Under the pieces are notes generated by a model, which was not told the origin of the DNA, did not search any database, and worked only from the letters and a program-made list of their open reading frames with translations. Shown piece after piece: positions 52,812 through 60,488 of a stretch of DNA of 64,000 nt (the stretch's first letter is position 1; every line of letters starts with the position of its first letter). The stretch lies in NCBI RefSeq assembly GCF_013085255.1, contig NZ_JABFCX010000002.1, positions 1,106,501 through 1,170,500 of the forward strand, written 5' to 3'. The DNA comes from Parvularcula mediterranea (lineage in GTDB: Bacteria; Pseudomonadota; Alphaproteobacteria; Caulobacterales; Parvularculaceae). Position numbers and translations under genes: made by a program.

Positions 52812-54614
52812 ATGACCGACCTTTCCCGTATCCGGAACTTCTCCATCGTGGCGCATATCGACCACGGCAAATCGACCCTTGCTGACCGCCTCATCCAGGT
52901 GACGGGCGGCCTCACCGAGCGTGAGATGCAGGAGCAGGTGCTCGACAATATGGAGCTCGAGCGGGAGCGCGGGATCACGATCAAGGCGCAGACCGTCAGG
53001 CTCACCTACACGGCCAACGACGGGAACGAGTACATCCTCAACCTGATCGACACGCCCGGCCACGTGGACTTTGCCTATGAGGTGAACCGTTCGCTCGCGG
53101 CTGTCGAAGGCTCGCTCTTGGTCGTCGATGCCTCCCAGGGCGTCGAGGCGCAGACCCTCGCCAATGTCTATCAGGCGATCGAGGTCGATCACGAAATCGT
53201 CCCCGTCCTGAACAAAGTGGACCTCCCTGCGGCAGAGCCTGACCGGGTGCGTGAGCAGATTGAAGAGGTGATTGGCCTCGACGCTTCCGACGCGGTGGAA
53301 ATCTCAGCCAAGACCGGCCTCGGCGTGCCTGACGTTCTTGAGGCCATCGTCAACCGCCTGCCAGCGCCGAAGGGCGACCCCGATGCGCCGCTCAAGGCCA
53401 TGCTGGTGGATAGCTGGTACGACCTCTACCTCGGCGTTGTGGTCCTTGTGCGGATCATCGACGGGAAGATGAAAAAGAACCAGAAGATCCGTATGATGAA
53501 GGCTGGCGCCACGTACCAGCTCGATCAGGTCGGTGTCTTCACGCCTAAGAAAGTCGAAGTCGATGAGCTTGGCCCGGGCGAGCTTGGCTACTTCACGGCT
53601 TCGATCAAAGAAGTCGCGGATACGGCTGTCGGCGACACCATCACCGATGACAAGAAGCCTGCCACCGAGGCGCTTGCAGGCTTCAAGCCGAACCAGCCCG
53701 TGGTCTTCTGTGGCCTCTTCCCGGTGGACAGTGCGGACTTCGAAGACCTGCGCGACGCCATCGCCAAGCTTCGCCTCAATGATGCGAGCTTTGAGTATGA
53801 GATGGAGACGTCCGCGGCTCTCGGCTTTGGTTTCCGCTGCGGTTTCCTCGGTCTCCTGCACCTCGAGATCGTCCGTGAGCGGCTTGAGCGTGAGTTCAAT
53901 ATCGATCTCATCACGACGGCACCTTCGGTGGTCTACCACATGTACAAGACCGACGGTGAGATGGAGGAGCTCCACAACCCGGCCGACATGCCTGACCCCG
54001 TGCATATCGACCATCTCGAAGAGCCGTGGATCAAGGCGACGATCCTCGTGCCCGACGAGTATCTTGGCGGTGTCCTCAAGCTCTGCGAAGACCGCCGCGG
54101 CATCCAGCAGGACCTGACCTATGCAGGCTCCCGCGCGATGGTCGTGTACGAACTACCGCTCAACGAAGTCGTCTTCGATTTCTACGACCGGCTGAAGTCG
54201 ATAACCAAGGGCTATGCCAGCTTCGACTACCAGATCATCGGCTACCGGGCTGATGAGCTTGTCCGTATGCAGATCCTCGTGAACGAAGAACCTGTCGACG
54301 CCCTTGCCGTGATCGTCCACCGTTCAAAGGCTGAAGCGCGCGGGCGGGCCATGTGCGAGAAGCTCAAGGATCTCATCCCGCGCCACCTCTTCAAGATCCC
54401 GATCCAAGCAGCTCTCGGCGGCCGGGTCATCGCGCGGGAAACCATCGGCGCCATGCGCAAGGACGTCACCGCGAAATGCTATGGCGGCGATGCCACGCGG
54501 AAGCGGAAGCTCCTTGAAAAGCAGAAGGCCGGTAAGAAGAAGATGCGCCAATTCGGCCGCGTCGAGATCCCTCAGGAAGCCTTTATCAAGGCCCTCAAGA
54601 TGGACGACGCCTAG
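52812..54614 (+). CDS. lepA: Translation elongation factor 4 (LepA)
   Basis: 600 residues from the ATG at 52812, matching [28 protein letters not shown]. GTPase blocks [24 protein letters not shown] and NKVDLPAA; the C-terminal domain ends [19 protein letters not shown]. It remodels or back-translocates stalled ribosomes. The stop overlaps the LOV gene's stop in CTAG. Confidence 0.97.
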
Positions 54615-56011
54615 GCGTCGTCTTCTTCCGCCGCGGTAAAGCTCAGCCGCACGGTGAAGCTGTCCGCGGTTTCTTCGATGGCGGCGTCGTCCCAGTCCGA
54701 AGCCCTGACGAAGGTCTTAACGAGGCCCACGCCAAATCGGCTCGCCTCGGGCAGGCTCGCATCCTCCGCCCACGTCATACGCAGCTCGCCATCCTGCTGG
54801 TGCCAGAAAAGGGAGACCTTGCGCTTCTTCGAAAGCGCTCCGCGTTCGGCAGAGAGTGCCGCGAGTTCGTAGATGATGATGGCGGCGTTGACGCCTTGTT
54901 TCCCGTCCAGTCTGGCGCTGTCGCCATCACGCGCGATCAGTGTCTCGTCAGGATCGAAGGACTGCAGAACCGCTGCAGCGATGTCGCCCATCTCCGCAGT
55001 GGTGTCCGACATGGAATAGACAAGGGCGTGGGCTGATGAAAGCGCCTGGAACTGGTAAAGGAGCCGACGCCTCAGCCCCTCGGCCGTGCCGTCCTCGGCT
55101 TCTGCTCCCCGGACCAGCACCTGCGCCATGCCGAAAAGGTTCCGTGTACGGTGATCAAGCTCCGCCAGCAGGCGTTCGCGTTCCTGGGTCAGTTCGACCT
55201 GCTTGGTCACGTCGCGCTGAACGGCCAGCCAGCTGTGCGGCTCGCCATCGGTTCCCCTGACAGGAGATACGGACCATTCGATCCAGAACGGGTCCCCGTT
55301 CTTGCGGTAGTTCACGGTCCGCGTGTTCGAGTGGCCGACGCCGCGTTCAAGGCTGTCCTTCAGGCGGTCCAGCGCTTCGCGGTCGGTTTCGGGGCCCTGA
55401 AGGAAGCGCGGCGAGCGGCCAACGACCTCATCATTGGTGTACCCCGTCATCCGTTCGAACCCGCGACTGGCCCACAGGATCTTCGGCCCGGGCTCTTCAA
55501 GCGGTTCATACTCGGTGAGGAGAAGGCTGTCCGTCGCCTGATCGAGAGCATATTCGAGGAGCTGCGAGCGGTCAGATTGATCCGCACCGAGATAAAACGC
55601 GCGGCTGTTGCTCTTCTCTTTCTCAACCACTTCCCATTGCGAGCCGAAGAAGTGGGTCAGCTCTCCCTGGTCATTGTAGACGGGGCTGATGTGCAGGGCG
55701 TTGCGGAAGGGGGTCCCGTCCTTGCGGTAGTTGAGGAGCTCGAAATAGCCGAACTCCCGCTTCTCCACGGTCTCGCGGATCTGGGCGACGAGAGACCGGT
55801 CGGTCTCCTCGCCCTGAAGGAAGCGGCAGTTCCGGCCAATGACCTCTTCCGCGCTGTAGCCAGTCAGCTGCAGGAAAGCGGGGTTGGCGAAGACGATCGG
55901 ATTGTCCTCAGCGCGCGCGTCGGTCACGGTCATGGCCATGCGCGTTTGCGCAATCATCGTCTTGACCAGCCCCTCGGGCAGGCCCGCCAATGCGTCGTTC
56001 ATCTCTGTCAT
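54611..56011 (-). CDS. LOV photoreceptor with second LOV-like PAS and degenerate HWE kinase module
   Basis: 466 residues. PAS1 (about 10-130) is a true LOV domain: GRNCRFLQG with the flavin-adduct Cys at 62, plus [13 protein letters not shown] and a late FFGSQ. PAS2 (about 150-270) is LOV-like, but its Cys is replaced by Pro201 (GRSPRFLQG), so it cannot form an adduct. The C-terminus is HWE/HisKA_2-type: phosphoacceptor-like His287 ([14 protein letters not shown]) and MTWAED. The N-box reads YELAAL where HELATN is expected, so His and the Mg-ATP-binding Asn are lost. Predicted blue-light sensor with weak or no kinase activity. Confidence 0.9.
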
Positions 56012-57171: not shown

Positions 57172-58776
57172 ATGGAAGACGCAGACTACGTCATCGTCGG
57201 CGGCGGGTCGGCAGGGGCCGTGCTGGCCAACAGGCTGAGCGCGGACGGGAAATACAAGGTCGTCCTTCTAGAGGGTGGCCCCAAGGATAAAAACCCCGCG
57301 ATACATATACCCTTCGGCCTGACCGTCATCACACACATGAAGAAGATCATCACGGGGTTCGAGACTGTGCCGCAACCCTTCGTGGACGGACGGACCATGT
57401 ACCAGCCGCGGGGGACGACGCTCGGTGGATCGAGCTCTGTCAACGCGATGTGCTATATCAGGGGCGACAGCTCGGATTATGACGAGTGGGCCGAGATGGG
57501 AGCTGTGGGCTGGGGCTGGGATGAGGTGCTTCCCTATTTCAGGAAGGCTGAGGACAATAGCCGCGGCGCTGACGATTGGCACGGTGAGGGTGGTCCGCTC
57601 GGTGTCTCGGATCTTCGCCATGTCAGTTCACTGACCGATGATTACGTAGAGGCCGGCGGAGAAATCCAGATCCCTTATACGGACGACTTCAATGGCCCCG
57701 ACCGAGAAGGGCTTGGCGTCTATCAGGTCACCCAGCGGGGCGGCCAGCGTTGCTCAACGGCCAAGGGCTACCTCACGGATGAGGTGAAGGCGCGCCAGAA
57801 CCTCAAGATCGAGACTGGCGCGAAGGTGCTACGCATCTTGATGGACGAGGGCCGGGCGACAGGCGTCGAGTACCGCGTGGGATCAGACGTCCGTACCCAG
57901 AAGGCACGCGCCGAAGTCCTTCTCTGTGCTGGTACTTTCGGTACGCCCCACCTCCTCATGCTGTCAGGTATCGGCCCTGCTGTCTCGCTGAAAGAGGCAG
58001 GGGTCACGCCCGTCCTCGACATGCCGGGTGTGGGACAGAACCTTCAGGACCATCTCGACGCGCATCTTACCTACCGGATCGAGACCCATGCGGGGTATGC
58101 GAACAGTTTCCGTTTCTTCGCGCGCATGGCGCCTGAGCCGCTGAAATACGCGACGAAGCGCGAGGGTGTCCTTTCCTCCAATATCGCTGAAGGCGGCGGC
58201 TTCGTGAAATCCTCGCCTGACGCGGAGAAGCCGGACCTTCAGTTCCACTTCATCCCCTCGATCCTTGTGGATCACGGAAGGAAGAAGGAGTGGGGCCACG
58301 GCTTCACCTTCCATGTCTGTCTTCTGTACCCTGATAGTCGCGGCGAGGTGTCTCTCCGCTCCGCGGACCCCGACGAGGCGCCGCTGATCGATCCGCGCTA
58401 TCTCTCCGACCCGAGGGACCTGCCACGCATGCGCGCGGGCTACAGGCTCTGCCAACGGATTGCCGATGCGCCGAGCCTTAAGAAGCACGCGCCGCACCCC
58501 CGCGAGGCGCAGACAGGGGCCGAGACGGACGAAGAGATCGATGCTCTCGTCAGGCAGACAGCGGAGACCGTCTATCACCCGATCGGCACCTGTCGTATGG
58601 GTACGGACGATGAGGCTGTTGTGACGCCAGCGCTGAAAGTGCGCGGCGTCGATGGCCTGCGCGTCGTCGATGCGTCCGTGATGCCAAGAATCATCGGCGG
58701 AAACACCAATGCCCCCACGGTCATGATCGCGGAGAAGGCGGCGGACATGATCCTCGCCGACGCCCGTGGCGCTTAG
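57172..58776 (+). CDS. GMC-family oxidoreductase (choline-dehydrogenase-like)
   Basis: 534 residues. FAD loop DYVIVGGGSAGAVLANRLS, GMC signature 1 TTLGGSSSVNAMCYIRG, signature 2-like GTFGTPHLLMLSGIGP, and the C-terminal catalytic His/Asn pair (TVYHPIGTCRMG, IIGGNTNAPTVMIAEKAAD). Oxidises an alcohol, possibly choline-like, to an aldehyde. No betB or betaine transporter beside it, so choline is not assured. Followed by the rhodopsin after 68 bp on the same strand. Confidence 0.92.
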   Translation: MEDADYVIVGGGSAGAVLANRLSADGKYKVVLLEGGPKDKNPAIHIPFGLTVITHMKKIITGFETVPQPFVDGRTMYQPRGTTLGGSSSVNAMCYIRGDSSDYDEWAEMGAVGWGWDEVLPYFRKAEDNSRGADDWHGEGGPLGVSDLRHVSSLTDDYVEAGGEIQIPYTDDFNGPDREGLGVYQVTQRGGQRCSTAKGYLTDEVKARQNLKIETGAKVLRILMDEGRATGVEYRVGSDVRTQKARAEVLLCAGTFGTPHLLMLSGIGPAVSLKEAGVTPVLDMPGVGQNLQDHLDAHLTYRIETHAGYANSFRFFARMAPEPLKYATKREGVLSSNIAEGGGFVKSSPDAEKPDLQFHFIPSILVDHGRKKEWGHGFTFHVCLLYPDSRGEVSLRSADPDEAPLIDPRYLSDPRDLPRMRAGYRLCQRIADAPSLKKHAPHPREAQTGAETDEEIDALVRQTAETVYHPIGTCRMGTDDEAVVTPALKVRGVDGLRVVDASVMPRIIGGNTNAPTVMIAEKAADMILADARGA

Positions 58777-58844
58777 GACGTCCCGCAAGGGGAACCCTCT
58801 GCCCCCTCCCGTGTCAGGGACTCGCCTTTGAAGGAGAGCCCTGC

Positions 58845-59708
58845 ATGGAAGCCGTCCACGCCAATATCGAGAACTTCACGTCCCTGACGGATGTCCAGTA
58901 CCAGCTCGCGCTCGTCGCGCTGATGATTGGCTATGGCGCGCACTTCGCCTTTGCGCCGTTCTTCCTGGGCAACGCCATCCACTTGAGGCCCCAGTACCGC
59001 ATCGTGCCGATGATCTCGGCCGTGGTGATGATCGCCGCTGGGCTCAGCCTCTTCCGGGAGTTCTCGACGCTCAAGGAAGCCTACGTCTTCACCGGCACCC
59101 TCTGGCTCCCGGCGGCGGATACGATGCACTCCAACGCCTTCCGTTACGCCAACTGGATGATCACGATCCCGCTGCTCCTCGTGCAGCTTCTCCTCGCCAT
59201 GGGGATCAGGCGCGATGAGTTCATGGGCACCTTTGCCAAGCTCGTCATCGCGGCGGAGCTGATGATCATCACGGGACTGATCGGTCAGTTCTACGAGCAC
59301 GCGAATGTCGGCATGATGCTGCTCTGGGGCGCGATCAGTACCCTTCCGTTCGTGTACCTCGTGATCGCCGTGAAGGGCGTCCTCGACAAGGGCGCAGCGC
59401 GGGCACCGGAAGACCTCAAGCCATGGTCGGGCAAAATCTTCCTCTATTTCCTCTTCTTCTGGGGCCTCTACGCCGTCGCCTACATGGTTCCTGCGTTCGC
59501 TGACGAAGGCGGCGGGGTCGTGGTGCGCCAGTGGATGTATACAGTGGCCGACGTCTTCTCTAAGCTCGTCTACGGCGTTATCCTGACCCGCTACGTCCTG
59601 CGCCTCAGCGCATCGGAGGGCCATGAGCCTGCGCTGGCCAGCCTCCTGCCCGGCGAAGAGACGCTGGCCCGCCGGGAGGATCCTGAGCCTGAGAAGTCAG
59701 ACGACTGA
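58845..59708 (+). CDS. NTQ-type microbial rhodopsin, predicted light-driven chloride pump
   Basis: 287 residues from ATG 58845 with AAGGAGAG upstream. Seven hydrophobic helices. Helix C reads RYANWMITIPLLLVQ: Asn103, Thr107 and Gln114 stand where proton pumps have Asp, Thr and Glu, the NTQ motif of chloride pumps. Helix G has DVFSK: the retinal-linking Lys240, with Asp236 four residues before it. Arg100 is kept. KR2-type sodium pumps would have Asp at 107. No retinal-synthesis gene is nearby. An acidic 30-residue C-terminal tail follows helix G. Confidence 0.95.
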   Translation: MEAVHANIENFTSLTDVQYQLALVALMIGYGAHFAFAPFFLGNAIHLRPQYRIVPMISAVVMIAAGLSLFREFSTLKEAYVFTGTLWLPAADTMHSNAFRYANWMITIPLLLVQLLLAMGIRRDEFMGTFAKLVIAAELMIITGLIGQFYEHANVGMMLLWGAISTLPFVYLVIAVKGVLDKGAARAPEDLKPWSGKIFLYFLFFWGLYAVAYMVPAFADEGGGVVVRQWMYTVADVFSKLVYGVILTRYVLRLSASEGHEPALASLLPGEETLARREDPEPEKSDD

Positions 59709-60488
59709 TCAGCCTGTTTCTTGGGTCTTCCGCACCACGCGGAGGACCCGGCTTTTCGGGATGAAGGGGAGGAGCGCGTAGGTGATCCTGCGCGCGAACG
59801 GCACCCCTGCGATGACGTTGAGCTTGCCTGCCATCATCGCACTATAGCCTGCCTTCGCGACACTCGCTGCGGAGGCTGTCTCCTTGAAGAGCTCCGTGCC
59901 TTCGAGGCCCGCTTCGCTGGCAAAGCCCGTCTCCGTCGCACCGGGCATGAGCGCCGTCACGGTGACCTTTGTCTTACGAAGCTCTTCATGCAGAGCATTG
60001 GAGAGAGACGTCACGAAGGCCTTCGTGGCGAAATAGGTGGCCTGCAAGGGCCCTGGGATGAGCGCAGCCGTCGACGAGACGTTCAGTACCCGGCCTTTAT
60101 TGCGCGCAACCATATGCGGGATGAAGAACCGGCAGAGCTCGGAGAGAGCGATGACATTGACCTCGATCATGTCCCGGTCCGCTTCCCAGTCCCGTTCGAT
60201 GAACGCGCCCTGACCGCCAAAGCCTGCATTGTTGATCAGCACCTCGATCTCGATGCCCTCGGCCTGCACGCGGTCGTGGATTCTCTTCGCGGCGCCCACG
60301 GAGGAGAGGTCCTCGGCGATGACGAGGACGGAGATGCCGTGCTGTGATTCAAGCTCGCTCTTCAGCTCCTCTAGCTTGCCGACCGACCGGGCGACGATGA
60401 CGAGGTTGCCTTTGCGCCTGGCGTGGATGCGCGCCAGCTCGAGGCCAATGCCGCTCGATGCGCCGGTGATAAGGGCGGTTCCGGTCAT
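59709..60488 (-). CDS. Short-chain dehydrogenase/reductase
   Basis: 259 residues from ATG 60488 (AAGGAG upstream). NAD(P) loop ALITGASSGIGLELAR, NNAGFGG, catalytic Ser in VLNVSSTAALIPG and YFATK (YxxxK). The length and the C-terminal FIPKSRVLRVVRK suggest a DltE/YqjQ-like SDR acting on ketones or aldehydes. The stop abuts the rhodopsin stop in TGATCA. Confidence 0.9.
   Translation of the reverse strand: MTGTALITGASSGIGLELARIHARRKGNLVIVARSVGKLEELKSELESQHGISVLVIAEDLSSVGAAKRIHDRVQAEGIEIEVLINNAGFGGQGAFIERDWEADRDMIEVNVIALSELCRFFIPHMVARNKGRVLNVSSTAALIPGPLQATYFATKAFVTSLSNALHEELRKTKVTVTALMPGATETGFASEAGLEGTELFKETASAASVAKAGYSAMMAGKLNVIAGVPFARRITYALLPFIPKSRVLRVVRKTQETG

Follow-up and report, generated by a model that had tools for sequence, protein, structure and literature searches.

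A predicted light-driven chloride pump of the NTQ rhodopsin type in Parvularcula, with alanine at the BR Pro186 position

The window, a 64,000-nucleotide stretch of Parvularcula mediterranea DNA, contains a gene whose rhodopsin product is very probably (about 0.9 in our estimate) an inward chloride pump driven by light, of the bacterial NTQ type (ClR). The chloride-pump interpretation, put forward in an earlier note on the same DNA, is supported by the sequence motif, the active site, the nearest solved structures, the predicted fold, the trees and a congeneric NTQ protein that pumps. Chloride binding, the direction of transport and transport itself would follow those of characterised relatives, to which the protein is connected by its residues, its fold match and its kinship. 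Since PoClR, from the same genus, is already known as a chloride pump (text of PMC5118547), the window protein adds to a known kind. It brings a divergent member to a small family of NTQ chloride pumps and is ordinary in kind; what sets it apart is a natural Pro-to-Ala change in the retinal pocket, a candidate colour switch in chloride pumps that lends itself to direct testing.

The gene and its active site

The gene is a complete frame with an ATG start, encoding 287 amino acids followed by a stop codon (Table 1), and its product matches the Pfam family Bac_rhodopsin (E 3e-32). A purine-rich, ribosome-binding-like sequence, AAGGAGAG, lies a short distance 5' of the ATG. A promoter scan for the gene returned 0 where shuffles expect 0.9, and is hence uninformative. 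The GC content of the gene (0.622) is close to that of the whole window (0.623), and among nine genes it ranks first in third-position GC (0.858), with CorA and atpA near it (0.83-0.84) and the YhhN value excluded; recent transfer as judged by base composition was dropped, because these values give no clear signal. An antisense open frame of 283 amino acids (58773-59624, minus strand) overlaps the gene and is probably a shadow of the rhodopsin frame produced by GC-rich codon use.

The product is a type-1 rhodopsin with R100, N103, T107, Q114, D236 and K240. These positions were read from an alignment of 21 rhodopsins, comprising nine NTQ rows (the window protein, NTQa of the genomes G002 and G006, the proteins of P. 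maris, Nonlabens marinus (NmClR), Fulvimarina pelagi and the genome G032, and two identical NTQb rows), five NDQ, six DTE and one DTL. The Asn-Thr-Gln motif at BR positions 85, 89 and 96 corresponds to N103, T107 and Q114, which the earlier note had numbered correctly and which share columns with NmClR Asn98, Thr102 and Gln109. The retinal lysine (K240) and the Arg-Asp pair (R100, D236) are present; Asp236 and Lys240, also rightly numbered before, occupy the columns of NmClR Asp231 and Lys235 (NmClR numbering from the text of PMC4999514). Further residues placed by the alignment are Ser96, Asn97, Leu111, Gln148, Gly162, Trp206, Gln229, Thr233 and Ser239. Agreement with the NmClR residues given in the text of PMC4999514 extends over R100, S96, N97, N103, T107, Q114, Q148, Q229, T233, D236, S239 and K240.

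Table 1. Features of the rhodopsin gene and its adjoining genes (positions in the window)
Feature	Coordinates	Strand	Evidence
NTQ rhodopsin, predicted inward chloride pump	58845..59708	+	Pfam, sequence-structure match, alignment, trees, fold
Helix C stretch R100-Q114 (Arg100, Asn103, Thr107, Leu111 = PR position 105, Gln114)	59142..59186	+	alignment to NmClR, KR2, XR and others
Gly162, BR Trp138 position, glycine linked to carotenoid binding	59328..59330	+	alignment
Ala210, BR Pro186 / KR2 Pro219 position	59472..59474	+	structure-match alignments, 21-row alignment
Helix G Asp236-Val-Phe-Ser239-Lys240: counter-ion, Ser of A/TS colour switch, retinal lysine	59550..59564	+	alignment
GMC oxidoreductase, choline dehydrogenase-like; neighbour, probably outside the system	57172..58776	+	profile scores, synteny
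SDR oxidoreductase, 259 aa from ATG; convergent neighbour	59709..60488	-	profile match, synteny

The motif also separates the protein from proton and sodium pumps, as the earlier note had stated: DTE rows carry Asp at the position of residue 103 and Glu at that of 114, and NDQ rows carry Asp at that of 107. In place of the helix C carboxylates of DTE proton pumps (PR/XR) the window protein has N103 and Q114, and in place of the middle Asp of NDQ sodium pumps it has T107.

According to the text of PMC4999514, the NmClR equivalents of Asn103 and Thr107 hold chloride beside the Schiff base, and most mutants of these two residues lost pumping or kept less than half of the activity, with the exception of T102N. 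The same source reports impairment in S91E, N92A and Q143E. These extracellular-entrance residues of NmClR are represented here by Ser96, Asn97 and Gln148, which occur in the NDQ rows too and so have no power to separate the NTQ from the NDQ type. NmClR has a second chloride site on the cytoplasmic side, A44-P45-K46, which reads R48-P49-Q50 in the window protein, with Pro alone kept, and NmClR A50 is replaced by V54. Since the NmClR mutants P45A and K46A pump nonetheless (text of PMC4999514), this site is dispensable for pumping there and is not a defining feature. Among the nine NTQ rows, only the window protein has His95 (Phe in all eight others) and Phe99 (Tyr in all eight others), both near the entrance and Arg100.

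In the proposed mechanism, all-trans retinal on Lys240 would form a protonated Schiff base, and Asn103 and Thr107 would hold a chloride next to it. Light would isomerise the retinal, upon which the chloride would pass the Schiff base to the Gln114 side and exit to the cytoplasm, while fresh chloride would enter from outside via the Ser96/Asn97/Gln148 region and then the Arg100-Asp236 region.

Fold, relationships and distribution

By sequence, the N. marinus chloride pump supplies the nearest solved structures (6ab9, 5fjg and 5b2n; E 4.2e-49 to 5.9e-49), followed by ErNaR (1.5e-42) and then by xanthorhodopsin and KR2 entries. AlphaFold2, given a four-row alignment (the window protein, the P. 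maris and F. pelagi NTQ proteins and the P. maris NDQ protein), produced a seven-helix model of the window protein with mean pLDDT 82.3 and pTM 0.80. A Foldseek search of this model against the PDB placed the N. marinus NTQ pump at ranks 1-15 (TMq 0.87 and rmsd 1.6 at rank 1; rank 10 is a mutant) and ErNaR at rank 16; being one protein, ranks 1-15 count as a single witness.

Two trees were built, one from all 21 rows and one from a reduced set without two long-branched rows, and 200 bootstrap trees were used. The eight alphaproteobacterial NTQ rows, including F. pelagi, form one group (support 91/100 with 21 rows, 94/95 with the reduced set), inside which F. pelagi pairs with G032 (100/97 and 99/98). 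The Parvularcula NTQ rows also group together, with moderate support (88/90 and 85/84), and the order inside this group is not settled by the trees. Of the placement anticipated by the earlier note, the grouping with the Fulvimarina NTQ protein and the separation from DTE and NDQ rows were borne out; a single clade with NM-R3 was neither supported nor rejected, NmClR joining the alphaproteobacterial NTQ rows in 54% of the 200 bootstraps (21 rows) or 27% (reduced set), with a p-AU of 0.254 for the forced clade (reduced set).

The NTQ and NDQ rows stand together against DTE (81/83 with 21 rows, 100/100 with the reduced set) and differ at one of three motif positions, which lends something to the idea that the NTQ motif misleads here and that protons or sodium are pumped outward. 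We consider this extremely unlikely, as residues 103, 107 and 114 all lack a carboxylate, NmClR T102D abolishes chloride pumping (text of PMC4999514) and the congeneric PoClR is anion dependent (text of PMC5118547).

The window protein is 37% identical to NmClR, 49% to the F. pelagi NTQ protein and 44% to that of G032; its top match among the genomes searched is about 60% identical, and the Ala-bearing NTQ copy of G006 is 60% identical over 255 residues. In a scan of ten genomes of the genus, five had a match at E<=0.001 and four (G000, G002, G005 and G006) an NTQ rhodopsin, the match in G009 being due to DTE proteins; G002 and G006 have two NTQ rhodopsins each. At order level, 5 of 299 genomes had a match at E<=1e-45, these being the same four together with G032. 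The own genome was the sole match in a class sample (1/385 genomes at E<=1e-45) and in a phylum sample (1/398 at E<=1e-30), both samples being judged thin because the text of PMC4831467 lists NTQ rhodopsins in Citromicrobium and Fulvimarina. No virus-borne relatives appeared in one scan of viral contigs.

Genomic neighbourhood and retinal supply

The neighbours are as the earlier note had described them: the GMC oxidoreductase gene ends at 58776, 68 bp upstream on the same strand, the stop codon of the convergent SDR gene starts at the next base after the rhodopsin gene (59709), and none of the five neighbour proteins scanned (LOV kinase, CorA, GMC, SDR and YhhN) is a carotenoid enzyme, the carotenoid and blh genes lying elsewhere. 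The shared strand and the 68-bp gap would suit a functional operon, for example one coupling osmolyte oxidation to chloride uptake, which would be compatible with the pump reading. Such an operon is nevertheless unlikely. The GMC protein scores below both NCBIfam choline dehydrogenase cut-offs (600.3 vs 605 and 493.4 vs 732.1). Besides the own genome, five genomes of the genus have a GMC match (G003, G004, G005, G006 and G007). Two of them, G003 and P. maris (G005), keep the order lepA, LOV kinase, CorA, GMC, atpH, atpA, with YhhN added between GMC and atpH in G003, and a 2.5-kb piece of G007 carries GMC, YhhN and atpH; none of these three syntenic GMC loci yielded a match to the rhodopsin or the SDR. 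The G004 match lies outside this neighbourhood, and no other queried window gene was found near it. Conversely, testing seven further rhodopsin loci (L003, L004, L020-L023 and L039, where L003 = L022, of P. maris) gave no GMC match. Because three relatives have GMC in this position and no rhodopsin with it, the two are probably not functionally tied, and the linkage as a functional unit was set aside as probably incidental.

Gene order suggests that, in the lineage of the window, the rhodopsin and SDR genes probably entered the space separating GMC from YhhN, although they may instead have been lost in the others. A relative of the SDR occurs in G007 (63%), on a contig stretch in which none of eight other queried window genes was found. 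The P. maris NTQ gene lies elsewhere than the GMC...atpH region. NTQa is next to a gene weakly matched by lepA in G006 and about 3 kb away from such a gene in G002; from its start sequence, we take this gene to encode a typA/bipA-like GTPase. That one genus has its NTQ genes in several unrelated locations fits movement of the gene.

Further rhodopsin loci of the genus were noted. In P. maris, the NTQ and NDQ genes are about 1 kb apart on one strand (L003:6001-8691). A 13.1-kb stretch with NTQb (L021:21-13162 and L024:1-13142) is 98.7% identical between G002 and G006, with identical NTQb proteins, and looks like either a recently transferred rhodopsin island or assembly cross-contamination; matching pieces of the NTQa region in the same two genomes are mostly 78-86% identical.

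The LOV kinase of the window, at 54611-56011 on the minus strand, is an HWE-type histidine kinase. Of its two LOV-like PAS domains, one contains GRNCRFLQG, with a cysteine at the flavin-adduct position, and the second GRSPRFLQG, which lacks it. G003 and P. maris have this kinase in the same position, with no rhodopsin there.

Predicted crtY, crtI, crtB and blh genes at other sites of the genome can supply retinal. The own genome has a second rhodopsin, of the DTE type, on contig C2, and a Brp/Blh-family gene lies directly upstream of it on the same strand (BCD E 2.0e-34; NCBIfam Brp/Blh score above cut-off). Contig C1 carries a carotenoid cluster encoding lycopene cyclase (crtY), a CrtI-family desaturase (crtI), phytoene synthase (crtB), a CrtW-like protein, a possible CrtZ and a polyprenyl synthetase. 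The crtY, crtI and crtB genes were assigned by Pfam, with crtI above and crtB below the NCBIfam cut-off; the CrtW-like protein has an NCBIfam E of 2.4e-57, yet is under the cut-off. A fatty-acid-hydroxylase-family protein of the cluster, with a Pfam match alone and no NCBIfam match, may be CrtZ. In the rhodopsin, the glycine linked to carotenoid binding (Gly162) is found in 20 of the 21 aligned rows and is hence permissive only. One fold-search entry, 9jow, is titled as NM-R3 with bound myxol.

Ala210 and comparison with known pumps

At the BR Pro186 position, with no gaps in the alignment around it, the 21 rows have Pro in 15, Thr in two (the G002 and G006 NDQ proteins) and Ala in four. The Ala bearers are all of this genus and make up four of the nine NTQ rows (the window protein, G002 NTQa, P. 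maris NTQ and G006 NTQa), while Pro is kept in NmClR, F. pelagi, G032 and the two identical NTQb rows. The history of Ala requires two changes on the reduced-set tree, and a single Ala clade withstands the AU test (p-AU 0.397). Ser239, the serine of the A/TS switch, tunes toward the blue and is identical in NmClR; the NTQ rhodopsin of G032 (L028:1492-2334), from another family of the same order, has Thr, not Ser, at this switch.

The text of PMC7979833 gives Pro at the BR Pro186 position in 98.7% of 3022 candidate genes. Sodium pumps without this proline are described in the text of PMC6491443 and PMC8514524, namely PoNaR (Thr) and JsNaR (Gly), and the same sources report that KR2 P219A absorbs at 536 nm compared with 525 nm for the wild type, a red shift of 11 nm. 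No mention of Ala at this position in an NTQ pump was found in the literature searched (text of PMC7979833, PMC8514524 and PMC6491443, outside figures and supplements). The G006 and G002 NDQ rhodopsins (L015 and L016) carry Thr there, as PoNaR does; with Thr in NDQ and Ala in NTQ proteins, the proline has been replaced in both types within the genus.

By analogy with KR2 and NpHR mutants, Ala210 probably moves the absorption some 10 nm toward the red and leaves the protein still able to transport. Loss of the proline might instead have left a retinal-binding protein that pumps poorly or has a sensory role: the change is a rare one in the retinal pocket, and in PoXeR the P179T mutation leaves roughly a quarter of the activity (text of PMC6491443 and PMC8514524). 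This is very unlikely, because Pro-to-Thr replacement leaves transport intact in KR2 and NpHR (same sources), the transport residues of the window protein are in place, the five scanned neighbour proteins include no transducer, and the nearby LOV kinase has a light-sensing domain of its own and keeps its place in two relatives without the rhodopsin. Extending the chloride-pump reading, Parvularcula could, with the odds somewhat against it, contain a naturally red-shifted NTQ lineage (near-universal Pro to Ala), possibly equipped with a carotenoid antenna from its own crtW-like cluster, in which the DTE and NTQ rhodopsins harvest different colours.

The closest system by genus is that of P. oceani, which carries NTQ, NDQ and DTL rhodopsins according to the text of PMC5118547. 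Its PoClR, expressed in E. coli, gave a light-induced pH rise that CCCP made faster; the response was alike in NaCl and in CsCl, and Na2SO4 abolished it (same source). The likeness of PoClR to the window protein lies in the genus and the NTQ motif, its equivalent not being fixed among the sequences compared. G006 resembles P. oceani but carries four rhodopsins (two NTQ, one NDQ and one DTL) compared with the three of the P. oceani paper; its DTL gene and Thr-bearing NDQ gene suggest that it may be P. oceani.

Among more distant systems, the F. pelagi NTQ protein (FR, L004) shares the motif and the alphaproteobacterial tree group at 49% identity, but has Pro at the BR186 position, and no other queried window gene was found around its locus. 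The N. marinus pump (ClR, NM-R3 or NmHR; 5g28, 5ztl, 6ab9 and 9jow) is alike in the NTQ motif, the Schiff-base chloride-site residues and the fold, and differs in its lower identity (37%), its Pro at the BR186 position and its other second cytoplasmic chloride site. The NDQ sodium pumps KR2 and ErNaR, of the adjacent group, share a similar fold and the Asn and Gln of the motif, with Asp at the middle position where the window protein has Thr. In JsNaR (Gly) and PoNaR (Thr) the same proline is naturally replaced (text of PMC6491443 and PMC8514524), but those are NDQ sodium pumps, whereas the window protein is an NTQ rhodopsin with Ala instead.
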